Part shown: one piece after another, positions 2,290 to 44,092 of the stretch | How positions within the stretch are numbered: the stretch's first letter is position 1 | How the letters are laid out: each line of letters starts with the position of its first letter | Assembly (NCBI GenBank): GCA_026770025.1 | Contig: JAMXDE010000009.1 | Coordinates: 2,331,001 to 2,395,000, forward strand | Length of the DNA stretch: 64,000 bases | DNA from: Craspedostauros australis | Lineage: Eukaryota; Bacillariophyta; Bacillariophyceae; Mastogloiales; Achnanthaceae | Direction: 5' to 3' | Program-made: the position numbers and the translations under genes | Notes under the pieces: model-generated | Databases searched by the model: none | Seen by the model: only the letters and a program-made list of their open reading frames with translations | Told to the model about the DNA's origin: nothing

Positions 2290-2433
2290 GGTGAGTCGAC
2301 CTGCACTTTGTTACGGGACTCAAGAACATTTATTCAGTAGATCCAAACCAAGCATATAATCGTATTCTCCCACCTCTTCTTATAAATAATTAACCATTAC
2401 ATTTTTGAGATAGATCCTATTTTAAGTTTTATG
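2290..2433 (+). repeat. T1 left terminal inverted repeat
   Basis: Arm of about 144 bp that pairs with 8169-8312. It starts near 'ggtgagtcgacc' and ends at 'aagttttatg'. Confidence 0.85.
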
Positions 2434-2922
2434 CATATTCAAAGGTTTTCTGAAGTCGTATGGGTCGATCCCTGTGAAATTCCTAGTTGTTTCGCAGAAA
2501 GTTAGATCATGTTCTCATGCATTTATCGTATGGTATCCAGTCACGGAATAGACGCCGGGATTGTCGTTCGTTTGGTACGCGTTAAATACACGTTAGCATC
2601 TGCGACATGATCTCACATTTTGCTCGTCACAAAACACATCACACAAAACACATCACACATCATCGGCATCTGTTCACAAATTCAGGCATCATCGCCACAC
2701 TTTCGCTCCATTTCGCAACTTTCTTCGCCAATGTCATGTGTACTCTTTGTTGTGTTCCATGCTTGTGCTCGCCCTAGTAGTGTAGTAGTAGTAATAGTTG
2801 CTGTGCCTGTCAATGAATGGTGGCCTTTCATCGTATCCTCTCCTTCCTCACTTCGTCTCAGACCTGTGCAGATCATCACATCCGACCAAATAGCAACTAC
2901 ACTATCCACCAACAATTCCACC

Positions 2923-5900
2923 ATGTTTCCCTCTGCTGCTGCCAAGGCCCTCTCCAAGGATGGCAACCCCTCCCCCAGTAAGAAACCGCGTTCTCCTTAC
3001 CCTGTATCTCCTCCCTTCGATTCGAAGGGGTTCCTGCTGCCAACTGCGGAGCAACTGTTGCCTGACAAGCCCTCTGCTACATTGAGGAAGCCGAGCATCA
3101 TCACGCAAGTGATCGATGTGAAGCCGATGCTCGCAGCAGATGGCAGCCTCGTCCCGAACAGTACGCATGCGCACGCTCGCGAGCTGCATGTGTACGTTCA
3201 CATCCTCGACAACAACGGAGGCGTCTTCGACGACTCCAATGTCAGGGTGCGTTCGGAGGGACGAGGTGTTGGCGATGGTACGTTGGTGAGCGTTATCGTG
3301 AACGCGCCACCCCCGCCTGCTGCAGCTGATGTTGCACCACCTGCCGAGCCTGCCCCACCGGCGAGGCTCCCTCGTCGCTGCAATGCTGTTGTTGCTGGTG
3401 TCTACGCAGACACCTCCAATGACAGCGACACCACCTACGACGACAACGACAGGGGTGAACGAACGCGTGCCAGCAGGAACAGGAGAGGAGGTCAGTTCGG
3501 GTTTGATCCGGAAGAGGCGGGAAACTGGAGGCGCGATGCCATTGTTCGTGTCATGGCAGTGCTTGGATCTAACCTAGATCCTGAACTGTTGTACCACATG
3601 CCCAAAACAGGATTCGTTCTTGACAGCAACGGTGATAGGACAACATGGTGGAACTTGACACGCGTGTGGGTCACTGTGGCTACTGCGCTCTGGGGTGTCT
3701 TGCTCCCTCAGGAGGAGTTGCCAACTCGTCAGATTAAACAGGTGGTGGAGTTTGTCCGCGCTCGCGTGGACCTGCCGCCGCCTGCACTCGGTTCAAATCT
3801 GTACACCCTGTGTGTGAGGGGGGAAAAGACAATTGCTAACGTGGCGAAAGCCGTTCTCGCTGCATCTACTTCATGCAACAACGTCACTGCAATCCTGTCT
3901 CGTCATGTGGAAATCATGCCGGAGGAACAAGGTATTCGTGTCGCACCAGCACGCGCCACTAACACTAGGAGTCAACCAACAACGTTGCGACGCGCCTTCG
4001 ACATATTCAGCCGTGGCGGAATCATTCCGCCCAAGGTTCTACAGTATCGTGTGCGTGCTTGCAACCTGTCTGGTGTGACGTCGTTTCTCATGACCACCAC
4101 TACGTACAAGGCAGGGTTGAGTCACACGGTACAGTTTGGAGGTGTCAAATTTGAAAATGTCCCCGTGTTCGATCGCGGAAGCACGACCATCGAACAACTA
4201 TTCGGCATGTACTCATCCACGACCAACAACCCAGTGGGAATGCCCGCTTTCACCCTCATCACTAACCTACTCACACGCAAAAGGAAGATCAAGATGGGCC
4301 TCTCTTCCTTCGAGAGTTACTTCTGGATGGCGACGGAGAAACTCAAACAGGCAATTTCGCGCCTAGTAGACCTACTGAAGGCTAAGTATGAAACTGATGG
4401 GGAGGAACAAAACGATGCCAATGACAAGAGTGACAACCACAACGACGAGCCAGATGACGTCATCGCGCCACATGTGCGCACAGCCGATTCCCTCTTGCAT
4501 GCACTCGAACTGCTTGTTGTGTTCCTCAAATGGGAATTCACCGCCTCCCACATGCAGCTTCAGTGTGATGATCCCATGCATTCGGCTGCGTTCGCACTCA
4601 CCACCAACAAGGAGAAGAAGAAGGCAACAACCACATCAACCAATCAACGCAAACCACGCACCAACAAGCACAAGCGCAAGAAGACCACCTCTGTCACCAA
4701 CGACACTCCAAACGTCACAAATAACAATTCTCCCACCACTACAAATGACCAACCCTGTAAAGTATGCAACCGTTGTGGATCAGCAATGCGATTTGTGAAT
4801 GATCCTTTTGTCCCTTTTGTCAAAATGCTTAAGGACAACGAACTCGCAGAACACAAGGACGAATTGCAATCCATGCTTGCGGCGGCGCCAGGATTCGCCA
4901 ACGAAATTGTTAACTACATGGCTCACAAAGTGCGCGCAAAAGTTCAATTCGGACAAATCGCCTTTTATCAATCCGAACTCAATGATAAGCCTGAAAGAGC
5001 CTATGTGGTACTTGACCATAAGCAAAAAATTCTACCGACAGGCCAAGGCGAAGCCCAACAAGAATATTGGGGGAAGAAGGGAATGTCACTGCTTGGGGCA
5101 ATGGTCATCACATGTCGCAATGACATTTTTACTTATCGGTTCATCGACATTGTGGTCGATGGAAGACCGACACAAGACACTCTTCAAGTTGGTGGACTGC
5201 TTGACATCGTGCAACAAAAGGTCAAAGACATTCTCCCATCCGTGACTGAAATCATCCTACAGAGCGATAACACGTGTTGTTTCACCAGTCACGAGCACAT
5301 CGCGCTCATCACGTCCAAACTCAACAAGAACCTTGTGACACGAAATGCGGCCAAAATCATTGCGTGGATCTACACGGAGGCCCAAACCGGTAAGAGCATG
5401 CTGGACACCCACTTCGCGTACATCACCCGTGTGCTGCGAAAATACGTGCAAAGTGGCAAGGACATCAAGACCCCTTTCCAACTCTTCCTTGCACTGAAAG
5501 CCGGTGACATCGCGGGTACCACCACGGTACTGGTCAACGCGTCGTCCCTCCAAGGCAACATCACGACGCTTCCTGGCGCACCAAAAAGACGATTCCGCGC
5601 GAATGGGCAACAGGTACGTCAAACTCACGAGGTGAAGTATGATGATGACCAGGCGCGGTTGGTGGCTGCATCTGGTATCACGGAAGACGTCGTGGTCAAG
5701 AGCGCTGAATGGGAAGGGTGGATCATCAACGAGTTGGGTGTCGTCCCTGCCAATTCGCACACGTCCGACAAGCTGCCGATCACGTCCGAATCGTCCAGGA
5801 AAACGGACAAGACGCGCAAAATGGGGCGCACAGCAACAGAGAGCAAGGCGTTCGCGATTGGCAAAGCCCTCCAAGACGGACAACAACATCTACCATCCGA

Positions 5901-6471
5901 TCACACCACAGCGCTACAAGACCAGACCGCAGAAACAGAACATCCACCACTTGCAGTGCCCGGCTGGGCAAGCAAAACAACACGGACCAACGCCAAACTA
6001 CCAGACTACATCGCGGACAAGTTGAAGGACATCTGTGAAGCGTCCGCGAAGGACCCCAAAAACAGGCCATCGGAGCACGAAGCACATGAGAAACTGATGA
6101 ACAACGCAAGAACCAAAACTGACTGGTACGTGCAACTGCACGCAAATCCCATGCGTGTCAAATCGTCGCTGTTTGCGGCGTACAGTGCCAAACAACGCAA
6201 AGAAAAGAAGCAGGCTGCCCTCAGCAAGACGGAAACCACCACAACACTGACCACCACCACCACCAACACAACAAGCAAAGCAACAGTAACAGCATCTGCA
6301 ATCGTGGCCATCAATAATGTGCCAGATGGAACAGAGGAGGAACGAATCGAAGAGGAGTTGCAGAGAGAGGAAGAGGAATTGGAGAATCAGAGGTGGTGTG
6401 ATGCTCACACAGTGAAGGCGAATGCAGAAAGTGAGGCTGTGTTGGATGATGATGGCACGAAAATTTTGTGA
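2923..6471 (+). CDS. T1 large DDE-type transposase-like protein (1182 aa)
   Basis: This is probably the enzyme that moves T1; no function has been shown. The frame stays open upstream to 2620, but the ATG at 2923 ('accatg') matches the start position and context of its T2 homologue, and similarity begins just after it ('NPSP.KKPRS'). Visible parts: a basic N-terminus; 'MPKTGFVL' near residue 225; a Cys-x4-His ('CDDPMH') and a later CxxC ('CNRC') that could bind zinc, separated by a Lys/Thr-rich nuclear-localisation-like stretch; then a block nearly identical between copies, containing 'LDHKQKILPTGQGEAQQEYW'. Candidate catalytic residues are D698 (VLDHK), D782 (QSDN) and E819 (TEAQTGK), with D828 close by. 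The C-terminus is Glu-rich and probably coiled-coil. Roughly 60% identical by eye to the T2 protein. The TIRs make a transposase the best reading; the superfamily is not recognised. Confidence 0.8.
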   Translation: MFPSAAAKALSKDGNPSPSKKPRSPYPVSPPFDSKGFLLPTAEQLLPDKPSATLRKPSIITQVIDVKPMLAADGSLVPNSTHAHARELHVYVHILDNNGGVFDDSNVRVRSEGRGVGDGTLVSVIVNAPPPPAAADVAPPAEPAPPARLPRRCNAVVAGVYADTSNDSDTTYDDNDRGERTRASRNRRGGQFGFDPEEAGNWRRDAIVRVMAVLGSNLDPELLYHMPKTGFVLDSNGDRTTWWNLTRVWVTVATALWGVLLPQEELPTRQIKQVVEFVRARVDLPPPALGSNLYTLCVRGEKTIANVAKAVLAASTSCNNVTAILSRHVEIMPEEQGIRVAPARATNTRSQPTTLRRAFDIFSRGGIIPPKVLQYRVRACNLSGVTSFLMTTTTYKAGLSHTVQFGGVKFENVPVFDRGSTTIEQLFGMYSSTTNNPVGMPAFTLITNLLTRKRKIKMGLSSFESYFWMATEKLKQAISRLVDLLKAKYETDGEEQNDANDKSDNHNDEPDDVIAPHVRTADSLLHALELLVVFLKWEFTASHMQLQCDDPMHSAAFALTTNKEKKKATTTSTNQRKPRTNKHKRKKTTSVTNDTPNVTNNNSPTTTNDQPCKVCNRCGSAMRFVNDPFVPFVKMLKDNELAEHKDELQSMLAAAPGFANEIVNYMAHKVRAKVQFGQIAFYQSELNDKPERAYVVLDHKQKILPTGQGEAQQEYWGKKGMSLLGAMVITCRNDIFTYRFIDIVVDGRPTQDTLQVGGLLDIVQQKVKDILPSVTEIILQSDNTCCFTSHEHIALITSKLNKNLVTRNAAKIIAWIYTEAQTGKSMLDTHFAYITRVLRKYVQSGKDIKTPFQLFLALKAGDIAGTTTVLVNASSLQGNITTLPGAPKRRFRANGQQVRQTHEVKYDDDQARLVAASGITEDVVVKSAEWEGWIINELGVVPANSHTSDKLPITSESSRKTDKTRKMGRTATESKAFAIGKALQDGQQHLPSDHTTALQDQTAETEHPPLAVPGWASKTTRTNAKLPDYIADKLKDICEASAKDPKNRPSEHEAHEKLMNNARTKTDWYVQLHANPMRVKSSLFAAYSAKQRKEKKQAALSKTETTTTLTTTTTNTTSKATVTASAIVAINNVPDGTEEERIEEELQREEEELENQRWCDAHTVKANAESEAVLDDDGTKIL

Positions 6472-8168
6472 GGGGTGTGCATCGCCCCGATAACACGAGT
6501 TGTGGAGTTTTGTGGGTGGCAGACCATGCTACTACAACGAGTCTAGAGGCCATCCAAAAACACATCCAAATATCGGCTTATCATGCTATATCTCAACAAC
6601 ACATTGCTTAAAATTAAATCTAAACATTGCATTCAGACGGCTGGCTATCTGTTAATCAGAATATTGAAGTTAAATGAGTATAGAACATATTTTGGAAGTC
6701 ATGTTGGTTTGCTGTGTGTTGTGTGGTGGATTCGAGAAAAAATTGTTGATGCCACAATGTTGCCTTCCAACGAGCGCACATGATCATCATCATCATCCTT
6801 GTATTTCAGAAAAATGTGCATACCATTTGCTCTGCATACCTCCCAGCTATCCGCTCCATGAAGCATGGCCACAGATATTGGCTCTGCATGCAGCAATGCA
6901 TCCACACACTGAAACAGAGCATTTTCGAAAATTCATTTTCGATGTGGATGCAGTTCAGATACGGATCCGTATCTCGTCCATACGATCCTTTCACCCCCTC
7001 CAAGCGCTCCTCGTGCATTACCACACTCCATGGCGACACGCGGATGCATCCAGACTGGGCTGGGAGTGCATGGCCGACGTGGTGCACCTCCATATGATGA
7101 TGTGGTGGTGCATTTATTGCTCCCACCAAACATGACCATTCCGCAGATATGGTTGGCTGCAGCGTCTTCCAGACAACTTGAGAAGAGCATGCTTCACGAC
7201 GTGCATCTTCAATTGATGCCGCACGCATCTTGTATGGGTGGCTTGACGATTGAGGGGCGTCGTCCCATCGCCCCTCACCACCAAAGCCACGCGACCGGTG
7301 CTGCGCGAGCCCCAACCAAAACTCCTCAAAACCACCTTTGCCTCTGCGCGGACACCTTCCCGGTGCTCCGCGACCCTCAAACTTCGAGGGTGCCTTCATA
7401 TTGGCCTTCTCGAGGCATCCTGCGCATCCATAGGCGCTGATATGGCCTGTGTGTGTCACACATTGGCCAAAACCAACCAGCCGATTTGGGGCCAAATTGT
7501 GATCGTATTTCTGGGGCCTACAACGGCCCCAAATCAACCCCTCTCCCCACCTCCGTTCGTCCACCCATCAAACGTTGCGTGGAGATGACGGCGATGTGCT
7601 TGGATCTTGAATTGGCCGGCTGGTTGTTGCGGCGCCAAGCATACCGTTCGATGGCCATTGTGGTGTTTTTTTGGTGTTGCTCCACTTCCATGTTGGTGTG
7701 TCGAGTTTGCCACTCTCAACCGGCCTCACATGTTGGGGGATGTGGAGATTTGCCTCCAATTGTACCGACTGTCCAAAAAGACCATGACACAAAACACTCG
7801 AGGAGTACCAACCCCACTCAACCACTTCGCCACGACGAAGCAGACCTGATGATGTTGCGCATCGTGATATCATTGGTGTTTGATGACGAAGTATCCAGTT
7901 TCGTGACGTCGATGACGGATTGGACAAGCACATGATGGAATGAATGTAAACGCGTGTTCACCGCTTCCCCCAACATTCTACAACTAGTGCTATCGTGGAT
8001 GGACTGTTGGATGGTCTCATCCGAACACCTGAAAAAGAGACTAAACAATTCAAAATCGGAACAACCTTGCTGAAACGAAGAACAGCAAAGGGTTAAATTG
8101 GATCGATGTAGTCGGTAGGAGACGGCCGAGTCCCTAAAGCAGTCTAAAAATGCGCACATTGACGGGTC
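6472..8168. other. T1 downstream region, 1.7 kb, no recognised gene
   Basis: T2 has only about 120 bp between its gene and its right TIR, so about 1.6 kb here is extra. I see several short inverted repeats, for example 7251-7259 with 7269-7277 (tgaggggcg / cgcccctca), 'gtgtgtcacac' near 7449, and 'cggatccg' near 6962. The longest frame, minus 6806-7564, has no recognisable motif. The region may be inserted non-coding DNA or decayed cargo. Confidence 0.5.
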
Positions 8169-8312
8169 CATAAAACTTAAAATAGGATCTATCTCAAAAA
8201 TGTAATGGTTAATTATGTATAAAGAGAGGTAGGAGAATACGAATATGTACGTTGTTTGGATATCTGAGACAAAAGTTCTGGAGTCTCGTAACAAAGTGCA
8301 GGTCGACTCACT
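8169..8312 (-). repeat. T1 right terminal inverted repeat
   Basis: Reverse complement partner of 2290-2433. It begins 'cataaaacttaaaatagg' and ends 'ggtcgactcac'. Confidence 0.85.
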
Positions 8313-8474
8313 AAGTGGGGTCATAAAGAACAAGAGCTCCGACCAGGGCACGCAACAACGGATCAATACTGTGCAGATTTAGTGCCAATTCCCGAATCTG
8401 GCCGAATCAGAACGAAGAGTGTCGATGGACAGACGATACGGCACAAACAACGAGTAGGATCCTTGTTGAGCAAA

Positions 8475-9633: not shown

Positions 9634-10299
9634 TTGCACTGAATGCTGCGATGGTTGGGATAGGTAAGTTGAGTGTTCAATGAATGAAGGAGTGGACACC
9701 AGCAGCACAGCCAATGGAGAAAGGAAGACAGAGAGAAGCAGGAAAGCGACGACGCTTGGAGAGTAGTATGGAGATGAACTGCGGATGGCACGGAGCGACA
9801 CATATGTACATACAAACACATTCATCTGGTTTATGGCAGTTGAAAACTGCACTTAGGCAAGACACATGTATTTGTGAATGTGTGAAGCAGCAAGAGATGT
9901 GCGACACTGAAGCTGTGAATGTGTCAACATACGACCCCATTCAGCGAGGTCGAGCATAATCCTGTCAATGTTGAATTGGACAACATGACATTTTAGCAAG
10001 CTATGTAGCATGTTGTCCACTAGGGTTAGATATATTTAGATAGCTCTTACAACACTAATACATGGCTTGTCCTCACTGTGGACGAGAATGATGCTGTCAT
10101 TGTTGGTCGATATGAGACTGCGATGGTATCCAACAGAGTGGGTAGGGATGCTGTGACAGCTTCAGTGTCGTGTTGATTCCTCATGTTGTGGACGATTGGG
10201 CTCTGTTGTGCGTTTCCTCCCTTGTGCGTGTTGTGTCAAGTAGCACAGGGTTATTTTTGGCATCCCTACATGTTCACGTCTACATTCACGGCAACAGCA

Positions 10300-11546: not shown

Positions 11547-11825
11547 ATGACCGATCCGCACAGTCATAATTTTCAGAACAGACAGGTTTCACCCCCCAAC
11601 ACCTCCGGTCACGTGAAAAACCTGCACAAATACGTCTACTGTAGTTACTTGTGCACTTTGACACAACCGATCAATTACATCAAGTTACGTACCACTCACT
11701 ATACATACCTACGTTGCAATACTCCTCCTTCTGCCCTTCCTCTTCCTCTTGTTCCCACACACACTTCCATACTTACATTCGCCGAATCGTCTCCATACAG
11801 AGATCCTGCTGGTTTGCGACATGGC

Positions 11826-13115
11826 ATGATGGGAAAAACAAACCCAACAGACGCAGATGAAGGAAGGACACGGCGAGCATCCCGAAGGACACGGCGAGCA
11901 TCCCGAAAGACGAAGAGCAACTCGCGGTGGAGAAGATCATCCTTTGCCATGCTCATCGTCATCGTCATCGTCATCATCATCATCAACTTGGTGCTTGGGA
12001 ACGCGCGCACCAGGATGATCTTCTCCACCGCGACCATGCAGAAGTACGTTGGTCCAGCGTGTGCCATGAACTCGACGGCCGATCATGCGGAAGCCGTCGA
12101 ATCATCCGAGCACACACCCAGGATGCTGATGGAACCGGGTCGGGTCTACGTGACCGGGGCCTGGAGCAAGCCCATCACGTTGTGCCTGTTCCCCGACTTT
12201 AATTTCAGCGGCGATTGGAAGGAGGAGACGCCGCTGACTCCCAACGACATTGTGGTGAGCGATATGCACAGCCCAGTGCCTGGAGGTGGCAAAATGCTGT
12301 GGGGCAAGAAAGCCAAGCAGAAGCCTGACAGCCAGCGTCCCGGCAAGATCCTGTTCTACAACGCCGAGTCGCACGGCGATATTTGGGAAAAGTTCTCGCC
12401 GCAGGACATCGGCGACCGCTTCTATCAAATCGGTCCCATCTCGCATCTGCAGCGAGACAACTCGTACCAGATGTATTACATGACGAAAGCGGCGCTGGGC
12501 AAACCCTCGCCCGACTTGGATCCGATCTTGCATCCGGAGATTGGCGTGCGCCGAAACTCCACGCGTCAAATCAATGGCGTGTTGTACAAGAACACCAACT
12601 GCGTCGCCTTTCGCGACGAGGCCGCACGACGGTTGTCGGAATTCCTCGATGTCTATCACGGCCAGTGCAAGCCCAGTGTGCCGATGCGCAACAACAGCCT
12701 ATTTCCCGACACCGTGATGGGAAGCAGGGGGAGCCTCGGCAACAACTTCCAGACGATGGGTCAATACAAATACTGCTTGGTCATGGAGAATGTGGTTGGT
12801 CATTCGGGATACATCACCGAGAAGTTGATGACCGGCTTCCGCGGCGGATGCCTGCCGATCTACACAGGTTCCCGCGTCGTTCACGACATCTTCAATCCAA
12901 AGTCGTTCGTCTACTACGACGTCACCAGACCAGACGAAGCGCTCGATCTGATCCGGCGCATGGAGGCCAATGAGTCGCTGTACAATGAGTACAACAACGC
13001 CCCGCTCTTCCTTGATCCCGAACGCATCGTGAACCAATACTTCTCCGCTTGCGACGGCGTGGGAGATGGATCTATGAAGCGCAAGATCCGTCAAATGATG
13101 AAGATCGAAGAGTAG
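11826..13115 (+). CDS. GT10-family alpha-(1,3)-fucosyltransferase-like type II membrane protein (429 aa)
   Basis: Members of this family move L-fucose from GDP-fucose onto N-acetylglucosamine-containing glycans in the Golgi lumen. The signature is in 'YKYCLVMENVVGHSGYITEK' followed by 'GFRGGCLPIYTGS', which matches the GT10 donor-binding region (Tyr-x4-Phe/Met-Glu-Asn ... Tyr-x-Thr-Glu-Lys ... Gly-x-Pro-x-Tyr). The architecture is that of a type II Golgi enzyme: a short very basic N-terminus, one hydrophobic helix at about residues 38-58 made almost only of Ile and Val, then the lumenal catalytic part. The frame extends upstream to 11547, but the tandem ATGs at 11826 and 11829 precede the basic anchor and are preferred. 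A direct duplication codes for 'RRASR' twice. The acceptor glycan cannot be read from sequence. Confidence 0.85.
   Translation: MMGKTNPTDADEGRTRRASRRTRRASRKTKSNSRWRRSSFAMLIVIVIVIIIINLVLGNARTRMIFSTATMQKYVGPACAMNSTADHAEAVESSEHTPRMLMEPGRVYVTGAWSKPITLCLFPDFNFSGDWKEETPLTPNDIVVSDMHSPVPGGGKMLWGKKAKQKPDSQRPGKILFYNAESHGDIWEKFSPQDIGDRFYQIGPISHLQRDNSYQMYYMTKAALGKPSPDLDPILHPEIGVRRNSTRQINGVLYKNTNCVAFRDEAARRLSEFLDVYHGQCKPSVPMRNNSLFPDTVMGSRGSLGNNFQTMGQYKYCLVMENVVGHSGYITEKLMTGFRGGCLPIYTGSRVVHDIFNPKSFVYYDVTRPDEALDLIRRMEANESLYNEYNNAPLFLDPERIVNQYFSACDGVGDGSMKRKIRQMMKIEE
11923..12032. repeat. 21-bp perfect inverted repeat around the membrane-anchor codons
   Basis: Bases 11923-11943 are the exact inverse of 12012-12032. 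The 68 bases between them are largely an ATC/GTC triplet repeat coding for the Ile/Val anchor. In mRNA this could fold as a 21-bp stem. Confidence 0.85.
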
Positions 13116-14168: not shown

Positions 14169-14893
14169 ATGACACCGACACCATACTCCTGTGAAGATCT
14201 CTTCCGTCCTTCCTCCGAAGGTCGATCCTACCATGACGATGTCGCTTGGTTTTACCGAGTCTTCGTCACTGGCATCGCTCCACCGAAGGAGGTACCACCA
14301 CTTGAGCGAGTCATCGCTGGTATCAATCACTGCGAAGGCGTGGAAGACGAACGTGGCAGCAACATCCTCGCCTCCCTTTGCATGACACCACAGAAGAAGC
14401 TCTGGCCTGGATGCTCTCCACTACCATTGATCCTTGCAGCCCAACTCTGGCGAGGGGCCAACCAAACAGGATCCATCACATCTGAATCTTCTTGGTGCTC
14501 CGCGCCCAGTGAATCTGGTAATACGGATGTGCCCATTGTCATCACAGCGCCTGTGGCTAGCGCAGATCTCTCCAGACCCAAAGGTCGAAAGATCGGATCC
14601 ACCAAGTGGACCGACAAAGAAATCCACCTCTTGCTCGCGACGGTGGGTCGCATCCTCCCTGTGGGACGCGACATGTGGGATGCAGTTGTTGCAGAGTGTG
14701 TTGGGATTGAACCAACTTGGCGACGCAACGCCACAGGATGCAAGCGCAAGTTCCAGCTGCTTGCGCTTCGCACCAAGCCAACTGGATCGTCGCACATCCC
14801 TGGTGATGTGCAATGGGCACAACAGATTCATGAGAACATCAGGACAAAGGAATCGATTGGATTCTCTGGCCTCAATGATGATGAGTTTGAGCG
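14169..14893 (+). pseudogene. SANT/Myb-like (DUF6818-type) domain gene, cut off by an LTR
   Basis: Residues about 142-225 (nt about 14595-14845) form a trihelix/SANT-like DNA-binding domain: 'STKWTDKEIHLLLATVGRIL' with spaced Trp residues (W, W, W), 'CKRKFQLLALRTKPTGSS' and 'DVQWAQQIHENI'. This pattern fits the DUF6818 family found in diatoms and oomycetes, often in mobile-element proteins. The first ATG is at 14169; the frame is open from 14109. The frame runs into the 5' LTR of Copia element B at 14894 and stops a few codons later, so the C-terminal coiled coil usual for the family is lost. No continuation is found on the far side of the element after 30199. Confidence 0.6.
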
Positions 14894-15483
14894 TGTCGAG
14901 ATGTACATGTGAGTATATGTCGAGATGTACGTGTATATGTGCATCGTTCACCCGTTATTCTCTCATACGCACTTGGACGGTATAACTACATTCGTGTCGA
15001 TAGTATACTGTGATTCGTCAGAATTACAGCGGAAATGGAACACACGAAAAGAAGCAAGATTTCTGGAGGAAATTTGCAAATAACGATTTCTGAGAGAATT
15101 GGAAGATCGTCCGTCCATCCATCAAAGGTACCAAGAGAATCTCGAGGTACTTCCCAACTAAGCCTCAGATGACGATATCATCTGACAGACTCATGCATCA
15201 CCAATGGAACATGACATCTGGAGAACAGAAGGACGCCTACTGACGTCGACAGGATGTCATCGTGTCACCACGTCGACATCTGTCTCCAAGTCAGAGCAGG
15301 AGGCGAAGATCCGATGACCGAAGGGCATCAGGATCATGGATACAGAAGGTGAACTTCAAATGGTAAGTACTCATGGAGTAGGAGCCAGTACTGAATGAAC
15401 GGAGTGTTGAATGCGGAGCACGCATCGAACACGGAGTATCGTGTAGCACGAGCACACGATGTTGAGAGAGAGAGAGAGAATAC

Positions 15484-16094
15484 TATTAGCTCAAACTAGT
15501 ATTCCTATTAGTCGTGTTAAGATTTAGTCTAGTTAGTCAAATGACCGACTGCTCAGAGTTTGAGCGGGATTGAAGCGTGACTCGATGTCGGTGGGATGGG
15601 GTCCCACCCTCGAATCGTGCTCTACTTAAGACGATGTCGCGTGTCCGCTGAATTTGGGTTTGGGCGATCGGGCCATCCCACGCCACTTATGGGCGTGACA
15701 TGACCTGTCCTGAACGGACAATCGGGTCAAACCGTTGGATGAACCTTGTTCCCCCAAATTGATCGGAAGAGAGTGAACAACAAAACTCTCTCTCCGACCG
15801 TCACGAAATTGATGTCTCCTCTTGGAAATGGCAACATCGACACCGCGATGATTGCACGTACGGAGACTCAACGCTCCACTATGTTACTACTAATAGAGAT
15901 GTTGCAGATCCAACTATAATGGATGCTGCACATCACATGCTCACAATCCTTTTGAAAGTCTCATTTGGATTTGTTACAGCTCTAAAGACTAAGACACACA
16001 CTCAACAACAACCTCGTTCACCTACTGTACTACCACCGATTGATCACCCTTCGGCGTTCAGTAAGTTCACCTCGTTTTCATTATCGTTTTATCA
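15484..16094 (+). repeat. 5' LTR of Copia A
   Basis: 611 bp, with about three differences from 22255-22865. Confidence 0.93.
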
Positions 16095-29378: not shown

Positions 29379-29398
29379 CCGAATGCACACAGGAAGGG

Positions 29399-30199
29399 TG
29401 TCGAGATGTACATGTGAGTATACGTCAAGATGTACGTGTATATGTGCATCGTTCACCCGCTATTCTCTCATACGCACTTGGACGGTATAACTACACTCGT
29501 GTCGATAGTATGCTGTGATTCGTCAGAATTACAGAGGAAATGGAACACACAAAAAGGGGCAAGATTTCTGGAGGAAATTTGCAAACAACGATTTCTGGGA
29601 GAATCAGAAGATCGTCCGTCCATGCATCAATGGTACCAAGAGAATCTCGAGGTACTTCCCAACTAAACCTCAGATGACGATATCATCTGACAGACTGCTG
29701 CATCACCAATGGAACATGACATCTGGAGAGCAGAAGGACGCCTACTGACGTCGACAGGATGTCATCGTGTCACCACGTCGACATCTGTCTCCAAGTCAGA
29801 GCAGGAGGCGAAGATCCGATGACCCATGAAGATCATGGATACTGAAGGTGAACTTCAAATGGTAAGTACTCATGGAGTAGGAACCAGTACTGAACAAACG
29901 GAGTGTCGAATGCGGAATACGCATCGAACACGGAGTATCGTGTAGCATGAGTACACGATGTTGAGAGAGAGAGAGAGAGAGAGAGAGAATACAGAGAGGA
30001 GCGAGAGAGGATCTCGCGTACCGACTCATAGTCGGAGACTGAATCTACGAAACAGATTGAAGCGCCGAGAGCATCGGGCAAGACAACTGGTGTACACCGA
30101 GAGGATCGGAGTAACCAAGTAATGAAATAGCAAGCAGACGACTATCAACCAACACCATCTTCCACGATCGTAGGTTACCGTGAGCGGAACTTGCCAACA
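29399..30199 (+). repeat. 3' LTR of Copia B
   Basis: 801 bp. It contains a GA microsatellite near 29963-29988 that is longer than in the 5' copy. The flank 30200-30899 holds no supportable gene; near 30450-30525 it has short 'tctccgatca'-like repeats. Confidence 0.9.
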
Positions 30200-31090: not shown

Positions 31091-33202
31091 CACGTCTGCA
31101 ACAGCGTCAATGATCTGCTTGCCTTGGTGGAACTGCCGGATCCGGAGGACACGGATCCCAACGACATTCGTCTCGTCACGACCGATCCATGGACGCAGTT
31201 CGCCCTCGTCTTCGCCGCCCTTGTTCATGGCATTGATCATTCCGGCGTCCCCAATGCCCAGCTCATCAAGGAGAAGACGCACGTTGCCAACGCCTACCAG
31301 AACAAGAGCGTCGCAGAACAGAACTCGGTGGAGCTGGCGTGGAATCTGCTGCTGGAGCCGTGATACAGAGATCTGCGCAATTGCATCTTCCGCACGTCGC
31401 AAGAAGTCAGCAGATTTCGTGGATTGGTCGTCACGGCCGTCATGGCCACGGATATTGCTGACAAAGAGCTGGCGGCATTACGCAAGGGTCGTGCTGCTGG
31501 CGTCATGAACGCTGCTGCGAATGGCGATGCTGCGTTACCGGCGTCATCGTCCGTGGCGGCATCATCATCGTCCCCGTGCATTGATGCAGTCAGCCGCAGG
31601 GCAACCTTCGTGCTCGAAACCTTGATCCAGGCCGCCGATGTCTCGCACACGATGCAAAGCTTTTCGATTTACAAACGATGGAACCGCAAACTGTACAGCG
31701 AGATGTACGCTGCCTTCAAATACGGACGCGCCGAGAAGGACCCCACCGACGGCTGGTACAAGGGCGACATCGGCTTTTTCGATTTCTACATCATCACGCT
31801 GGCGCAAAAGCTCAAGCTGTGCGGCGTCGTCTCGTGCGAGCAGTACATCGAAGGTGCCAGATCCAATCGCAGCGAATGGGAACGCATCGGAGAGAGTCTC
31901 GTCAGAGACTACAACAGCACACGCAACGACGCCATTCCACGGGCTTCCACGAGCGGCCTGATGACAGCCAAGATCGCCAAACCACCCAGCCAGGATGTTC
32001 GCAGTCCCAAGATGTCTTCCAACAACACAGGCGCGTCGAAACCTGGACTTCGCAAGCAATCCTCCAAGATCAAACGTGCGACGCCACCATCAGCGACACC
32101 GAAAATGAAGAATACCAAGAAGACAAGCAACAACAAGAGCAAGACGAAGAAGAAGAAGATCACCGCCACGTCGAAACGCAACGGCAAAATCACACCAGCA
32201 GCAGCACCGCAGGTTGTGTTGAACATGTCCAACGTCATTCCAAGGAATTCTTACTCCCACTGGCACTCCGATTCCTCGTCGTCATCTTCATCATCGTGCT
32301 CGTCGTCCTCATCATCGTCTTGTTCGGTGTCCTCTGTGGATTTGGATGTTTCCGTTTCATCTGATGAAGAATCGTCGGATTCATCATCATCTTCATCTTC
32401 ATCTTGCGGATCATCGTCATCCTCATCGTCGTCATCTTGCTCTGTGTCGTGCTCTTCGTCATCCGATGACAATGAGCAGGAGGAAAAGAAGGTGGAGCAA
32501 CTTGCGATGGCAGCCAGACGCCGCAATATGTTCAAAAAGACAAAGGCAACCTGTGACAAGCACCAGCATCAGCAGAAGAAGAGCAAGGGTCGGAAGCAAC
32601 CCAGAAAGCAATCCAGGAAAATGAAGGAAGTGGAAAAGACGAAGCAGAGGGTTGGACGATCCAGGAAGCTGGCAGTGTCTCCCAAGAGGACGCCCGAAAA
32701 GCCACCAAAGAAAGCAAACAAACCAGTCAGCAAACCAAAGCAGAAGACGAAGAAACCTCCAAAGAAGAGCCAAGGCACCCCCGTGTCATATGCAGGCGAT
32801 AATAGCATGAGCGACAGCAATGTCAGCAGCTCAGCAAGATCGGTGGAATCGGACGGGCGCAAAGTGATGCATGGCACCACTTCGAAATCGACCAGCAGAC
32901 GCATTTCGCGTTCCGGCAAGCGCCCAACCTCCAAGGACCCCAGCCGTCGCAAGCGTTCCGTGTCCGGCGAATCTATGCGACGCCCCCCATCGTTGCAATC
33001 CGTCTCCTCCCGAGATCCGTCCATCACGCTGGATCAAGCATGCCTGCCCAAGAGTGGCGTCGCCAAGAAACGATCCAGCGGCTCTAAATCGACAACATCC
33101 TCCACCTCCGCCACATCGTCCAAATCATCCAACCAGCGACCCACCACACCCCCTCCGCGTGCCGGTACCAAGATCCGGTACTTCAACGACAATCCCATCT
33201 GA
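31091..33202 (+). pseudogene. 5'-truncated cyclic-nucleotide phosphodiesterase relic with Ser- and Lys-rich tail
   Basis: One frame (through 31055-31363 and 31424-33202) aligns with the phosphodiesterase half of the bifunctional enzyme encoded at 52037-56024: 'QFALVFAALVHGIDHSGVPN' against 'QFAAVFSALVHDVDHLGVPN', then 'VAEQNSVELAWNLLLEP', 'LIQAADVSHTMQ', and 'WYKGDIGFFDFYIITLA'. The metal-binding His-Asp pair is His-Gly here, the upstream H-x3-H motif is missing, and an in-frame TGA at 31361-31363 interrupts the domain. It therefore cannot encode a normal phosphodiesterase. After the domain comes a long tail: about 75 residues almost all Ser with Cys and Asp (nt about 32250-32460), then a Lys/Arg/Pro/Ser-rich stretch to the stop. 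The cyclase half is absent; an LTR fragment lies at the cut. The tail frame remains open. Confidence 0.75.
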
Positions 33203-36423: not shown

Positions 36424-38621
36424 GGTTGTCTTTGTCTTCGTCGCCGTCGTGAGACTGTTTGGTTCTGCAAGGCGGGCGCATTTGTAGATGTGCATGTATG
36501 CGTACGTGCCACAAGAATGGGTTGGTACGGATCACGTATGGGTTGAGATTGGCAATGCGAGCACCATGTGTAAGTTCGGCGGCGAGTTTCGTCCCACGAA
36601 GAACGGCAACGATTGTGAGTGTTGCAGTGATGTGTTCGTTTGTGTGTGCGCAGAATTGTTGGTGTGTGGAACGACGCGAGACGTGGTGACGAGCATCGAC
36701 AACGACGGCAATCAATGAAGATCAACGATATCCATCAATCGACACAACATCATGAAGATTCGATCACGTCAAGGTTGCGCACACAAGAGGCATCAGGTGC
36801 GCGTGCGAAGGGAAGGGGAGAGAAGGAACCATGGTTATGGCAAAGAGCAGCATGAGTTAATTCGGCTTGGACGAGGTGTGGGATTTGAATACCGGAATGT
36901 GAAGCAGCGCGCGTCTAGCATCGGCATGACACGAGGCATCCTGAACGAGATTGTGGTCACCGACAAGGGCCGCAGCATCGCTGCATAACGATCTGCGAAG
37001 ATTGACTGGAATGCATGCATGTTGCTCGTACTCGCAGGTATCTTGCATCTCAACCGCTGGTGCGTGCTGCCGTTTCATCAGTGTTGCTGCATCATCTGCG
37101 ACACTATCCGCGGTTCGTGTGCGTCTTGACGTCGGTTTTGCAAAATTACTGCATTCTCCGTTGTGCAGGTACGAGTCTGTGCATGTGCGTTGTCGATTCT
37201 TCCTCTTGCATTAGCCAGGCTTCCATCCCCCTTTCTTCATGATGTGCACGTACCTTTCGAGTTGTTTTGCTTCGTTGCGGCCTCAAAGGGGTTTGTCGTC
37301 TCCTTCCAACGCCTGCTGGTTGTTAGTTGATTGCTGATTGCTGGCGTTTCCAATCTGATGATTGAATTGTTTTGTGAGACTTTGGTGTCGATTTCGGAGA
37401 CAACGAAGTGATTCCTGCGAGTATCGCAAGCGTGTTGTGTGTTCGATGCGCCATGAATGTGCGAGATGCAATGAGCCCGGTGGCGTGGAATGAGACTGCA
37501 GCTACCGACACCACCACCAATGGCAGAGCCTGTCGACTGCACTGGTGCATCACACTGCATCACACTGCATCACACTACATCACACGCACATGTCAACATG
37601 AGCGATGCTTGTCTCCACTCCTCGGACGGGGAGCTGTCCACACACGAGGTTACGGTAATGCCTGCTGGTACTAAAACAGTCCACGATTTGCTCGGTGGTC
37701 GGTTGGCATTTGTTTGGAGGTTCGTCGTTTGTTTGGGGATTTTGGACAGTGCCTGGCGTTGCTGAACCTGCCGACGTCATGGTTGGTTCCGGTCCTCGGC
37801 GCAGATCTTCGACCTGGAAGGTTGGTGCGAAAGCCGGCAGTGCGTTGTGGTGAATCGGCGCTGCGGGCTGGCACAGCATGCACCCGCGCCCATACCTGTC
37901 ATACAAAGAGGCGATCCTACCTGGCGATCCCCCCTGGCGATCCGCACAACACATCCCATGAAGAATCCATGAATAACCAGAATGCAGTGGACAAGAACGA
38001 GAAACGATGAAGGGGATGAGCGATGGGTGATAGGAGACCGTCGTCAATCGCCTATTCTTTTCCTCGCTGTGGGCATGTCTGAATGTTGCCAGCCTCATGG
38101 TCAGCGCCTTTTATGTTTGAGAAAACGCCCAAGAGTTCTGTTCTTCTCTTGCGGGCGGGTCCTTCCAACACTCAGACGGATTTCAAGTTCGCCTCAAGGC
38201 GTCCAAAAGGAAGTCCTTGCAACCAGCAGCAGGGCGATGCTGTTGCGACAAACCAAAGACAGAAGGCTTCCGCTTCTTCAATTTGACGCCAATGTTCGCT
38301 CACCACACGTCCAACAGAATGGAGTCCTCGTGGAGACTTCGTTGATGCAGAAGCTCTGGGTGTTGCCGAAACAGAGTGAAGCGGAGCATTGGCCACCTGG
38401 TTGGTGCTTGTTGGTATCCAGAGATTGCACGCTTCCTTTCGGATGTGTGCGATCTCTTGTGCAGAGTCATAATTCGCTACGCGTCGACGCCGAAACGTGC
38501 TTCTCGTTAAATCTCCCCCAATAGAGACTTCCTGAAGCCCAAAAGCAGTTTCCCAAAATGACACGCACTGTGACTATCAATAACGTCTAGCACGAACGTC
38601 CTGAAAAAGAACCAATAGGAC
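36424..38621. other. Intergenic, 2.2 kb
   Basis: It separates the Cys-rich gene from transposon T2. Several open frames of up to about 180 codons exist on both strands, but none has recognisable motifs or a repeat pattern. Small repeats occur: 'tgcatcacac' about four times at 37546-37585, and 'ctggcgatcc' twice near 37920-37945. I cannot exclude a small lineage-specific gene at 37982-38524 (+). Confidence 0.4.
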
Positions 38622-38773
38622 CCATGTGAGTGAGTCGACCAACCGTTTGTAAAGTAGAGTGGCACTTTTTCTTCGATTACAATCAAACTAAGCATACCAA
38701 TCAACTCATTATAGTGTCCATAGCAACAGGAAAATTACCCAGAAACTTAAAGTTTATGGTTTAAGTTTTATGG
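38622..38773 (+). repeat. T2 left terminal inverted repeat
   Basis: About 152 bp, about 96% identical to the inverse of 43020-43172. Confidence 0.9.
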
Positions 38774-39283
38774 ACCAGCAAATATTTAGAGTCGTATGGG
38801 TCAAACGGAGCATTCCACAATGTAGTTATGTCGAAGGTTCTTTGGTGTTCCGAGTTAATAACAATTGGTGTCCATTCACGTTGGTGTCTCCAGCTTTTTC
38901 CTTCCTCCTCGTTCGTTTGGAACACGTTATACACCGTTAGCTGCTCCGGAATCGATTGACATTTTCCGCTTGAGGACAACACACACATCATCACATGCGC
39001 ACGCACACATCGTCGCCACGCCGACACAAAAACCGTCACATTTTTTGCTTCATTCCAAAGGTGCCTCCACCGATGCGATGCTCATTGTATCTGTTGTGCT
39101 GCGGTTGTAGTATGAGTAGTGAGAGCACTAGTGACATTGGCGGTTGTTGTTCTCGCTGCTGCATCCAACACCTCTATCGGCATCACCTCCTCCACCCGCT
39201 TTCATTCAGCGTTCTACAGTGTCATTCATCGATCAATCAATCAATCAATCAATCAATCAACCTCCTTTGCTACCATCAACACC

Positions 39284-42200
39284 ATGTCCTCCATCCCCGC
39301 CAAAGCAACAATCAAGGGCGAAAACCCATCTCCTCGTAAGAAGCCTCGTTCCTGTGCTGCCCCTCTCTATTCTCCTTTTGATTCGGAGGGCAACTTGGCA
39401 CCTACTCGTGAGCAGCTGTTGCCTGACAAGCTGTCTACTGGATTGCGGAAGCCCACTGACATCACTCACGCGATTGAGGTGAAGCCAATGCTTCCGGTGG
39501 ACAGCAACCTTGTTCCAACTTTGGCGCATGTCGATGCCGCTAACCTGCGCGTTGACGTGCGCCTGTCCAGTGCGGCTGGTGTCATCTTTGATACACCAAC
39601 GGTCACACTGCGTACGGTTGGACAAGGTGTCAGTGCTATCACAGTGGTAGACATCAGTGTGAACGTGCCACCTCCTGTTGAGTCTCCTGCCAAACCAACT
39701 ACCCGCGCAAGCACTGCACGACACGCAAACGCTGTCGCTGGAGGCGCTTCCGAGCAAGTTGATGTTGACAGCGACGACGACTACGTGGATGGCCGTGATC
39801 GCAGGAAGAAGCGAACAGGCCGCAACAGAATCATCAAGAAAACGGTGAGAGGATGGCGTCGCGATGCGTTGGCCGGCGTCGCGGGGTTGGTCAAGTCGGG
39901 CCTATCTCCAAAAGTGTTCGACTCTATGCCGAAGACGGGCTTCGTACTCGGCGGAAAACACGATCGGCAAGTCTGGAGCAACATCAAACGGCTGTGGGCA
40001 CCAATTGCTTCTGCGCTCTGGGATGTGTTGCTCCCAAAGCAACCAACACCGACTTGCCAGATGCATGAGGTGGTGCAATTTGTCCGAGCTGGTCAACCAC
40101 TGCCACCAACGACACTTGCACCAAATCTGTACCGCATATGTGTTGGAGGGAGCAAGCTCATGCATCTCTGCGCGAGAGCTGTTCTCGCGCAGTCTGCGTC
40201 TCCAACAACATGCACAGACATTCTCACTGGATATGTCAATGGATTGCCGGAGGAAGAACGCGTGCGTGTACATCGTAATCGATTAACAGTCACTAAAAGC
40301 CAACATAACACATTGCATCGTTACCATGACATGTTGAGCGATGGGGAAACCATTCCTCCCAAAGTTGTTCAATACCGTGTGACTGCATGTGCTTTGTCTG
40401 GTGTGGTGTCGTTTCTCTGCACTACGACCACGTACAAGGCTGGCTTGTGCCACGCAGTGGAGTGGGAAGGAGTCGTATTTGACAACGTTCCTGTCTTCGA
40501 TCGTGGAGGCAAAAGCATCATGGCGCTATTTGACATGTACAAGACGACGACTACCAACCCAGTGGGCGAACCAGCATTCAAAGAGATGACGCAGCTACTA
40601 ACACGACGTGGCAAAGTGAACACAGGGCTGTCTTCCTTCGAAAGCCACTTCTTGCTGGCGATGCTCACTCTCAAACGCACGATCTCGCGCCTTGTCACAC
40701 TTTTGAAGGCTAAGTATCCCACAACAAACGGCGCTGAGGACGAGAATGACGTGATTTCCCGGCATCTGCGCACAGCCAAGTCTCTTTTGTACTCATTGGA
40801 ACTTCTTGTTGTCTTCGTCAAATGGGAATTCACAGCATCACACATGCAGATGGAGTGTGATGACCCACTGCACTCAGCTCAATTCGCGCTCACGCCCAAC
40901 CAGAAGAAGAAGACAACGACGAAACAATCCCAACCAACCAGAACACGTACCAACAAGCACAAGCTCCGTAAGAAGAGCACTCGAACCAACAACATCCCTT
41001 CAGTCACCAACAACACTCCAAGCATCACAATTGATATTCCAGAAATCACTTTTGTGACAGATACTGCTGCCAATGACACCACCACTGCCAACAACGAACA
41101 GCCTTGCGCCCCCACAGACAAACAGCACACTGGAGTATGTAACCGTTGTGCAGGGGTGATGCGTTTTGTGGATGACCGATATGTCCCTTTCGTCACGTTG
41201 CTTATGGAGGATCATCTTGCAGAACACGCGACAGAATTGGAGTCAATGATCAATGCCGCACCGGGGTTCAACAACGAAATACTGTGGTACATGGCACACA
41301 AAGTGCGCAGCAAGGTTCAATTCGGACAAATTGAGCAGTACCTCAAAAATATCAACAACAGAGAGGATCGTGCGCATGTGGTGCTTGACCACAAGCAGAA
41401 AATTCTTCCAACTGGCCAGGGCGAAGCTCAACAAGAATACTGGGGCAAGAAGGGCATGTCTCTGTTGGGTGCGATGGTGATCACATGTCACAATGGCACA
41501 TTCACTTATCGCTTCATCGATATCATTGTGAAGGGGAGGCCAACTCAAGACACCCTCCAAGTTGGCGGGCTTCTCGAAATTGTGCAACAACAGGTGAGAA
41601 AAATTCTTCCATCGGTCACTGAAATTGTCATCCAATCCGATAACGCGTCTTGTTTCGCGAGCCATGAGCACATCCCACTGATCACATCAGTGCTGAACAA
41701 GAACCTTGGAATGCGAAATGTCCCCAAGATCGCGGCCTGGATCTACACCGAAGCCCAAACCGGAAAAGGCCGCCTTGACACGCACTTTGCGTACATCACT
41801 GTTGTACTGCGATCCTACGTGCTGGAGGACAACGACATCAAGACGGAACACCAACTTTTTGACGCATTGGAAGCTGGCAACATTGCAGGAACAACCACGG
41901 TTTTGGTGGATGCAGAATGCCTCGAGGGGCGCGTTGTGAGTTTCCCTGGCATGCCGAAGAAGCGTTTCTGCGCGAAAGGCCAAAAGGTACGCCAAACGCA
42001 CGAGGTGAAGTTCGGAAACGACGAGGCCAATTTGGTGGCGGCATCCGGTGTCACAGACGACGTTCTTGTCCCGTGTGCCGAATGGGAAGACTGGGAAATT
42101 AACCCGCTGGGCTTCCGCACCATCGCAACGCACACGTCAGGAACGGAACCGTTCACCGCCGAATCGCCAAAGAAGAAGAAAAAGACGCGAAAGTGGGGTG

Positions 42201-42898
42201 CTACCGCGGTGGAGAGCAAAGCGCTCGTCTTTCGCGACGCACTGAACATGGGGCAAGGAGAGCTACCACACGACCACACCGCAGAATTGAAAGACCAGAC
42301 CACGGAAGCCGAAATCCCCCAACTCGCGGTGAAGGGCTGGGCAGTGAAAACAACGCGCAGCAACGCGGAGTTACCACGGTACGTACTGCAGAAATTGGAT
42401 GAAATGAGCACCGCCGCCAAAAAGGACCCGAAAAATCGACCAACAGAACACGAAGCGCACCGCCGATTGATGGAGCTGGAGGGAACAGAGACTGATTGGT
42501 TCACGCAATTGCACGGAAGTCCAATGCGCGTGAAATCGTACCTGACTGCGGCGTACTACAGCTCACAACGCGACGCCAAGAAAACAGCCGCGGCATCAGG
42601 TACGACCGACAACAACACCAAAATGGCATCAGCATCATCACCATCACCAACAGCAACAGCAACTGCTATGGAACGTACAGGTACGAAACCATCCGAAAAG
42701 CAGAAGAGCGAAGAAGAGATGGAGGAAGAGGAAGAGATGGAAGAAGAGGATAGAGAGAATAGGATGTGGTGCGAGGCCAACACCACGAGGAGACACGCGG
42801 AGAATGAAGAGATGGTCCCCGAAGACGTGAGGGAAGCGATTCGGACGAGGATGAGAAGGAGACTGAAGGCGAAAATGGATCAACAAAATAAGGACTAA
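39284..42898 (+). CDS. T2 large DDE-type transposase-like protein (1204 aa)
   Basis: This is a homologue of the T1 protein along its length. The frame is open from 39119, but the first ATG in this frame is 39284 ('accatgtcc'), directly after an atca-repeat leader; conserved sequence ('NPSPRKKPRS', 'EQLLPDK') starts soon after. Candidate catalytic residues are D702 (VLDHK), D786 (QSDN) and E823 (TEAQTGK), exactly the D-84-D-37-E spacing of T1. Possible zinc ligands are 'CDDPLH' and, after a Lys/Thr-rich linker, 'CNRC'. The block around 'LPTGQGEAQQEYWGKKGMSL' is identical in the two proteins. The C-terminal about 100 residues are Glu/Arg-rich and probably coiled-coil. It probably cuts and joins the T2 ends in the nucleus. 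The superfamily is not recognised from sequence. Confidence 0.82.
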   Translation: MSSIPAKATIKGENPSPRKKPRSCAAPLYSPFDSEGNLAPTREQLLPDKLSTGLRKPTDITHAIEVKPMLPVDSNLVPTLAHVDAANLRVDVRLSSAAGVIFDTPTVTLRTVGQGVSAITVVDISVNVPPPVESPAKPTTRASTARHANAVAGGASEQVDVDSDDDYVDGRDRRKKRTGRNRIIKKTVRGWRRDALAGVAGLVKSGLSPKVFDSMPKTGFVLGGKHDRQVWSNIKRLWAPIASALWDVLLPKQPTPTCQMHEVVQFVRAGQPLPPTTLAPNLYRICVGGSKLMHLCARAVLAQSASPTTCTDILTGYVNGLPEEERVRVHRNRLTVTKSQHNTLHRYHDMLSDGETIPPKVVQYRVTACALSGVVSFLCTTTTYKAGLCHAVEWEGVVFDNVPVFDRGGKSIMALFDMYKTTTTNPVGEPAFKEMTQLLTRRGKVNTGLSSFESHFLLAMLTLKRTISRLVTLLKAKYPTTNGAEDENDVISRHLRTAKSLLYSLELLVVFVKWEFTASHMQMECDDPLHSAQFALTPNQKKKTTTKQSQPTRTRTNKHKLRKKSTRTNNIPSVTNNTPSITIDIPEITFVTDTAANDTTTANNEQPCAPTDKQHTGVCNRCAGVMRFVDDRYVPFVTLLMEDHLAEHATELESMINAAPGFNNEILWYMAHKVRSKVQFGQIEQYLKNINNREDRAHVVLDHKQKILPTGQGEAQQEYWGKKGMSLLGAMVITCHNGTFTYRFIDIIVKGRPTQDTLQVGGLLEIVQQQVRKILPSVTEIVIQSDNASCFASHEHIPLITSVLNKNLGMRNVPKIAAWIYTEAQTGKGRLDTHFAYITVVLRSYVLEDNDIKTEHQLFDALEAGNIAGTTTVLVDAECLEGRVVSFPGMPKKRFCAKGQKVRQTHEVKFGNDEANLVAASGVTDDVLVPCAEWEDWEINPLGFRTIATHTSGTEPFTAESPKKKKKTRKWGATAVESKALVFRDALNMGQGELPHDHTAELKDQTTEAEIPQLAVKGWAVKTTRSNAELPRYVLQKLDEMSTAAKKDPKNRPTEHEAHRRLMELEGTETDWFTQLHGSPMRVKSYLTAAYYSSQRDAKKTAAASGTTDNNTKMASASSPSPTATATAMERTGTKPSEKQKSEEEMEEEEEMEEEDRENRMWCEANTTRRHAENEEMVPEDVREAIRTRMRRRLKAKMDQQNKD

Positions 42899-43019
42899 TT
42901 AATTCAAAATGTGAACAAATTCGCCAAAACCAAGAACACGAACACGTTATTTTGGATCGAACTTGTCGTATGTCTATCGCCCAGTTTAGGAGTAGTCAAA
43001 AAATGCGCACATTGACGGG

Positions 43020-43172
43020 TCCATAAAACCTAAACTATGGACTTTAAGATTCTGGGTAATTTTCCTGTTGCTATGGACACTATAATGAGTTGATTGGTAT
43101 GCTTAGTTTGGTTGTAATCGAAGAAAAAGTGCCACTCTACTTTACAAACGGTTGGTCGACTCACTCACATGG
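43020..43172 (-). repeat. T2 right terminal inverted repeat
   Basis: Inverse partner of 38622-38773. It lies only 121 bp after the stop codon of the T2 gene. Confidence 0.9.

Positions 43173-44054: not shown

Positions 44055-44092
<38 letters not shown>

Follow-up and report, generated by a model that had tools for sequence, protein, structure and literature searches.

About 20 superfamilies of DDE transposons have been named in eukaryotes (PMC9587614), and many algal DNA transposons are unassigned: the table published for Ectocarpus places 51 families under DNA/Unknown (PMC12477816). Here we analyze a window of 64,000 nucleotides from the diatom Craspedostauros australis (GenBank assembly GCA_026770025.1, contig JAMXDE010000009.1, positions 2,331,001 to 2,395,000 of the forward strand) and describe two related elements within it, designated T1 and T2, each of which pairs terminal inverted repeats (TIRs) with one large gene. 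We read T1 and T2 as autonomous cut-and-paste DDE transposons that generate 4-bp target site duplications (TSDs), and assign this reading a probability of roughly 0.85. All coordinates below are positions in the window.

The length of the target duplication points to Sola as the closest named superfamily, and as the main named rival for the placement of T1 and T2. Sola elements are mostly 2-9 kb long, with 4-bp TSDs, TIRs of 11-1124 bp and transposases described as DDD (PMC10741241). Sola2-type elements from two amoebozoa carry TIRs of 12-21 bp and 4-bp AT-rich TSDs such as AWWT, and one of these families encodes a putative 888-amino-acid transposase (PMC3627910). Sola has also been reported from a diatom (PMC7466962) and from the brown alga Ectocarpus (PMC12477816). 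Compared by description only, T1 and T2 resemble the Sola1, Sola2 and Sola3 elements in their 4-bp TSDs, in their large putative transposase and in TIRs that fall within the published range of lengths.

Like the DDE megafamily of RNase H-like polynucleotidyl transferases, T1 and T2 encode D, D and E in a conserved core, although their proteins have no significant sequence or fold match to that group. In IS3EU, Ginger and IS481EU transposons, and in the integrases of long terminal repeat (LTR) retrotransposons, the second spacing of the triad is short (about 35 residues in integrases), as is the spacing of 37 found here. TSDs of 4 bp also occur in Ginger and in some IS481EU families.

Results

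Ends of the elements

The window contains 67 open reading frames (ORFs) of at least 150 amino acids, and two of the longest, at 2620-6471 (+) and 39119-42898 (+), are enclosed by matched inverted repeats. As first detected, these repeats pair 2277-2433 with 8169-8325 in T1 (157 nt) and 38616-38783 with 43011-43178 in T2 (168 nt). In both T1 and T2 the TIR pair encloses one gene, the arrangement looked for in a cut-and-paste transposon. A first-pass annotation made from the letters of the sequence had proposed two DNA-transposon-like elements here, each with TIRs and one large homologous gene; the TIR pairs, the two ORFs and the 56% identity of their products confirm it.

Direct repeats of 4 bp flank both elements, ATAA at 2276-2279 and 8323-8326 around T1 and ATAG at 38615-38618 and 43176-43179 around T2. 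These repeats share one offset, 11 bp outside a conserved block, GTGAGTCGACC, and because the offset is common to both elements we set the ends of T1 at 2280-8322 (+) and those of T2 at 38619-43175 (+). T1 is then a complete DNA transposon of 6043 bp with the ends GAGCC...GGGTC, and T2 one of 4557 bp with the ends GACCC...GGCTC, so defined that all four termini read GAGCC or GACCC (GASCC). The left and right TIRs occupy 2280-2433 (+) and 8169-8322 (-) in T1 and 38619-38776 (+) and 43018-43175 (-) in T2, with BLAST identities of 87.7% over about 154 bp and 95.6% over 158 bp, respectively. The two insertions, with ATAA and ATAG, show a target-site-like duplication of one fixed length. Of 200,000 sets of flanks drawn at random from the window, 0.069% give both elements a repeat of 4 bp or longer at a shared offset. 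Outside the shared TA, none of the 26 aligned columns shown is identical across all four ends.

Alignment of the four TIRs reveals a conserved outer block (TA.GA.CC followed by GTGAGTCGACC), a diverged middle and a conserved inner block, in which TTTARGTTTTATG is present in 4/4 ends and is followed by GGACC in 3/4. The long TIRs that T1 and T2 had been said to share are therefore common to them at the outer end and the inner block, but not in the middle. GTGAGTCGACC occurs exactly four times in the 64-kb window, once at each end of T1 and T2. Allowing one mismatch adds a single place and brings the count to five, where 1.64 matches in all are expected by chance and 4 of 100 shuffled sequences reach five; the significance of GTGAGTCGACC rests on where its copies sit, not on how many there are.

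Conserved subterminal blocks, also proposed at the first pass, are borne out at the 3' side. About 140 bp of subterminal DNA is common to the two elements (T1 8047-8184, +; T2 42901-43037, +) at 74% identity, and includes a core of 25 bp (8152-8176 and 43005-43029) that is identical in T1 and T2 and has two matches in the window, against a chance expectation of 0.00. Between the gene and this block T1 carries about 1.5 kb (6472-8046) for which comparison of the two elements detects no counterpart in T2. A second gene in this T1-specific segment was considered and rejected: Pfam, searched with a limit of E 1, matches 0/4 of its short ORFs, and one of the four extends beyond the right end of the element.

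Where T1 and T2 can be aligned their DNA is 66-74% identical, and their proteins are 56% identical. Judged by these values they are two related families, not copies of one, so that the single family originally suggested holds for their relatedness and not for its count. A search of the window (tblastn, E 0.1) finds no third copy. T2 looks to be the younger insertion, because its TIRs are 95.6% identical and those of T1 87.7%.

A longer repeat is present at T1. The 10-bp sequence GGGGTCATAA lies at 2270-2279, in the host DNA that borders T1 on the left, and again at 8317-8326, across the right end. The copy in the left flank equals the last six bases of T1 plus the TSD and stands directly before the element; the offsets of the two copies are unequal. 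T2 has no long direct repeat: in a test of 30 bp to either side, its longest is 4 bp. We offer no explanation for the GGGGTCATAA duplication other than chance or an old excision or insertion footprint.

The conserved gene and its protein

The large ORF, intact in each element, is the sole gene found in common between T1 and T2. The coding strand of T2 holds no further ORF of at least 150 amino acids, and the opposite strand holds three, of 158-229 amino acids, inside the gene. The products of the T1 and T2 ORFs are referred to here as P0001 and P0002. The first conserved ATG lies at 2923 in T1 (P0001 residue 102) and at 39284 in T2 (P0002 residue 56), from which putative transposases of 1182 amino acids (2923-6471, +) and 1204 amino acids (39284-42898, +) would be made.

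Constraint is not evident in the 48 aligned codons 5' of this ATG, where the proportions of nonsynonymous and synonymous differences (pN and pS) are 0.49 and 0.78. From the ATG onward the ratio of nonsynonymous to synonymous substitution rates (dN/dS) between T1 and T2 is 0.255, an approximate value, as synonymous sites are strongly diverged (pS 0.63). The ratio is 0.116 in P0001 residues 796-1030, the DDE region, versus 0.20-0.33 in the other blocks after the ATG. The protein is under purifying selection, which is strongest across the DDE region.

Counted from the ATG, D, D and E stand at residues 698, 782 and 819 in T1 and at 702, 786 and 823 in T2, exactly as first annotated; their codons start at 5014, 5266 and 5377 and at 41387, 41639 and 41750, respectively, and the spacings are 84 and 37 in both proteins. 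In P0001 numbering this triad is D799, D883 and E920, which we regard as the best candidate catalytic residues and not as proven ones. The best conserved stretch of the protein is P0001 800-899, with 80-90% identity per 50 residues, and the longest run identical in the two proteins (37 residues, P0001 796-832) spans the first D. Ahead of the triad, the zinc-like ligands C-x4-H and C-x2-C previously noted are present in both proteins, at residues 649 and 716 of P0001 (codons at 4564 and 4765) and 580 and 674 of P0002 (codons at 40856 and 41138), separated by a linker that is variable and contains gaps.

The context of the gene suggests that it encodes the transposase. This assignment, made at the first pass, draws support from the TIRs, from purifying selection and from a plausible DDE triad in the best conserved part of the protein; the RNase H active site that went with it is not established.

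Predicted fold

AlphaFold2 was run twice, on a stretch of 521 amino acids and on a nested stretch of 241, with two sequences each. In both low-confidence models one strand ends at or just before the first D; next come a helix, a pair of long strands and another helix, and then a strand that ends just before the second D, with E inside a downstream helix. This placement of D, D and E agrees, in models of very low confidence (mean predicted local distance difference test score, or pLDDT, of 34.3 and 39.1), with a published rule that uses predicted secondary structure to recognize RNase H-like folds (PMC5718144). As predicted, the succession of strands and helices corresponds for the most part to that of an RNase H core. 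Structure prediction had been named at the first pass as a check on the transposase, by the clustering of the three acidic residues; with a mean pLDDT below 40, the models bear on the strand and helix order only.

Library and distribution searches

A search of Pfam profiles, another check named at the first pass, yields no significant match to a named transposase, a weak result in view of the following control. The window contains two genuine Copia polyproteins, and the Pfam integrase model rve scores one of them at E 0.012, below cut-off, and misses the other. The Pfam negatives thus say little about diverged DDE domains here. Because rve barely detects the Copia integrases of the window, we treat the library negatives as weak and do not use them as evidence for a new superfamily.

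Sub-cut-off matches from Pfam (Med16_C, E 0.075-0.3; DUF6062, 0.091; Glyco_tran_WecG, 0.11; CD99L2, 0.16-1.5; Prothymosin, 0.58), from PHROGs (phrog_9219, 0.1), from NCBIfam (ribo_P1_arch, 9.8) and others were set aside as chance, because they fall below cut-off and because the family differs between P0001 and P0002. The PDB profile matches 2oze and 8q4k (E 0.082-1.3) were likewise judged to be chance. When the protein profile was compared with that of the window's two Copia integrases there was no signal, as 60 of 100 column shuffles score as high.

Relatives were not found in viral contigs by single protein, alignment or DNA patterns, in prokaryote genome contigs by alignment or a loosened DNA pattern, or among phages and plasmids, where P0002 was the tblastn query and matches up to E 1 were admitted. 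The protein searches start from short exact peptide patterns, by which distant relatives could be missed. The DNA motif patterns, including the one run on viral and genome contigs, recover both genes of the window (2/2), except for one variant that recovers neither, as both genes spell the two codons GATAAC; of the four possible spellings, three (GACAAC, GATAAT and GATAAC) were run against the viral contigs. Among the matches listed from the open-licence literature there is no description of the group.

Comparison with named superfamilies

The first-pass annotation had failed to match the protein to a list of named superfamilies. For hAT, MuDR, P, Kolobok, piggyBac and Harbinger this stands, a defining feature of each being absent from T1 and T2; Sola, however, was omitted from the list. 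Kolobok and piggyBac, which have a TTAA target duplication (PMC9587614), were rejected given the ATAA and ATAG observed here. PIF/Harbinger elements duplicate 3 bp of target (TAA or TTA) and carry, as their second ORF, a Myb-like one (PMC10741241); the repeats here are 4 bp in both elements, TAA is contained in that of T1 and not in that of T2, and no second common gene was found. Ginger and IS481EU are defined by TG...CA termini and an integrase-like transposase (PMC10741241), and were rejected on the GASCC termini and on the absence of profile similarity to the Copia integrases of the window.

Other features of the window

Two Copia elements are nested at 14890-30199, the inner one lying inside the left LTR of the outer. 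The inner Copia extends from 15484 to about 22868, with LTRs that are 99.3% identical and an ORF at 16993-22221. The outer Copia has its LTRs at 14890 to about 15483 plus 22866-23077, and at 29395-30199, with an ORF at 23160-29378. At 43850-44659, starting 0.7 kb past the right end of T2, lies a copy of an LTR in inverted orientation; it is related to that of the outer Copia (82-88% identity by piece) and looks like a solo LTR.

Other repeats comprise an inverted pair of about 0.8 kb at 30-821 and 45497-46224 (72% identity), which is a dispersed repeat, and an inverted pair at 937-1211 and 10000-10273 (73% identity over 277 bp). A tandem array at 58508-60638, mostly of 72-bp period (24 codons) and with 26 in-register places against a 300-nt reference, overlaps two long ORFs, 58484-60730 and 58548-61667, whose frames differ. 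A second array, at 1466-1661, has a 20-bp period, is rich in the palindrome ATGCAT and has seven in-register places against a 76-nt reference.

Among the remaining ORFs, that at 52037-55663 (-) encodes an adenylate/guanylate cyclase with a phosphodiesterase. Together with the Copia elements, this gene makes the DNA look like that of a stramenopile alga, perhaps a diatom. A separate ORF at 31424-33202 (+) has a partial phosphodiesterase match, and 45 nt of it resemble the ORF at 52037-55663 in inverted orientation. The ORF at 11547-13115 (+) matches glycosyltransferase family 10 (fucosyltransferase) in its C-terminal part.

Discussion

The observations described above are best accommodated by cut-and-paste transposition. 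What the sequence shows is the two elements with their TIRs, 4-bp direct repeats and shared blocks, and one conserved gene in which the D/D/E spacing is kept; we infer the role of its product as transposase, the catalytic residues, an RNase H fold, a zinc site, the sites bound on the DNA and the route itself. In both TIRs, a transposase made from the single gene would bind GTGAGTCGACC in the outer block, which lies 11 bp in from each terminus, and probably also TTTARGTTTTATG in the inner block, at a depth of about 140-155 bp. We propose two binding sites per end because the outer and inner blocks are conserved and the middle is free to vary. The transposase would bring both ends together and excise the element at the GASCC termini; for catalysis it would rely on metal ions that D, D and E coordinate within an RNase H-like domain. 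The excised element would then be joined to a new target with a stagger of 4 bp, which host gap repair would convert into duplications such as ATAA and ATAG. The zinc site, C-x4-H ... C-x2-C, ahead of the catalytic core probably aids DNA binding or the fold.

Several observations weigh against this reading. The 4-bp duplication is deduced from only two insertions, and the longer T1 repeat, GGGGTCATAA, would suit different ends for T1 alone. Within P0001 716-1010 there are 17 invariant D or E residues, so that the catalytic three are not settled, and the conserved D929 is a possible alternative third residue. Sequence searches of Pfam, PHROGs, NCBIfam and PDB with P0001 and P0002 return no match above cut-off (the curated one in Pfam and NCBIfam, a significant E-value in PHROGs), to a known transposase or otherwise. 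The two AlphaFold2 models, at mean pLDDT 34.3 and 39.1, have no residue at 70 or above; they lack strand 5 of the core and place an extra helix between strands 1 and 2. Foldseek comparison of the 241-residue model with PDB, a weak test because the model is poor, gives 0/706 matches at E ≤0.001, the best being coactosin at 0.017, and comparison of the same model with BFVD gives 0/828 at that threshold (best 0.018). NurA and Cas12 proteins contain RNase H-like domains, and among the best 50 PDB rows (of 706) there are 14 for NurA, RNase HI or a Cas12; all are non-significant and we do not count them as support.

An alternative placement would make T1 and T2 a diverged branch of a named superfamily that is missing from the searched libraries, most likely Sola. 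Their lengths, TIRs and 4-bp TSDs lie within the published Sola ranges, Sola is known from a diatom (PMC7466962) and from Ectocarpus (PMC12477816), and the library negatives carry little weight when rve scores one Copia polyprotein at E 0.012 and misses the other. In contrast, the third residue of the Sola triad is D where the conserved third candidate here is E, though D929 is also conserved, and the 12-21 bp TIRs and AWWT-type TSDs described for amoebozoan Sola2 differ from the TIRs of about 155 bp in T1 and T2 and from the ATAG of T2. Sola-like proteins carry motif strings of the GHTHxDID type and DNCxGxN, and both strings are absent from P0001 and P0002. On balance we consider membership in Sola or another such superfamily rather unlikely, though a serious contender.

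The remaining explanations appear considerably weaker. D-84-D-37-E falls within the range of Tc1/mariner-like or Zator-like groups, and T1 and T2 could be distant members of these if the true duplication were the 2-bp TA that lies at the center of both ATAA and ATAG. DD37E families of Tc1/mariner have indeed been published (PMC10379824). The bases that flank TA, however, also match in both elements, giving a 4-bp repeat in each, and no Pfam transposase model matched. The T1 and T2 proteins are, moreover, about three times the usual size of a Tc1/mariner transposase, and we regard this alternative as improbable. Affiliation with the group comprising hAT, P, MuDR, Kolobok and Dada, of which C/DxxH is a common signature (PMC9587614, PMC3706591), is very improbable. 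Mutator-like traits here are the long TIRs and, at T1, the possible repeat of 10 bp (GGGGTCATAA); yet the repeat occurs at T1 only and at unequal offsets, T2 shows at most 4 bp within the 30 bp tested per side, and neither protein has [CD]xxH between the second D and E or anywhere in the 60 residues that start at the second D. A Mutator with a 10-bp duplication was rejected on these grounds. The triad of Dada-U6_DR (D567, D635, E811) also departs from spacings of 84 and 37 (PMC3706591). Highly doubtful, too, is the notion that the conserved gene is a passenger and that an unrelated transposase mobilizes T1 and T2 in trans. In favor of this notion, the protein has no match, by sequence or biochemistry, that identifies it as a transposase, but the gene is the only one found common to both elements, the DDE region is its most constrained part, and the strand and helix order predicted in the low-confidence models largely fits an RNase H core.

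Returning to T1 and T2 as cut-and-paste DDE transposons, they are likely new at the level of the family. Uncharacterized animal proteins carry the pattern D...K.LP....E.Q...GK(K/R)G, QDN/SDN and (E/D)PQ.GK. As a lead only, we take these proteins to share with T1 and T2 the spacing from the first D to GK(K/R)G and to have a cysteine/histidine site before it; their motifs around the second D and E are presumably similar as well. It is possible, and we suggest it tentatively, that T1 and T2 are the first bounded elements of an unnamed DDE superfamily of which the animal proteins form another branch. Should that be so, the marks of the superfamily might be D-84-D-37-E, the motifs DHKQK.LP, QSDN and TEAQTGK, GASCC termini and 4-bp duplications, a proposal as tentative as the superfamily itself.

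If T1 and T2 instead belong to Sola or to another named superfamily, they represent an ordinary, well-bounded algal family. In either case they supply termini, a target duplication, a gene and candidate catalytic residues with which a new group can be tested, and if the animal proteins prove to be kin, a widespread and unannotated set of proteins would gain a likely role.

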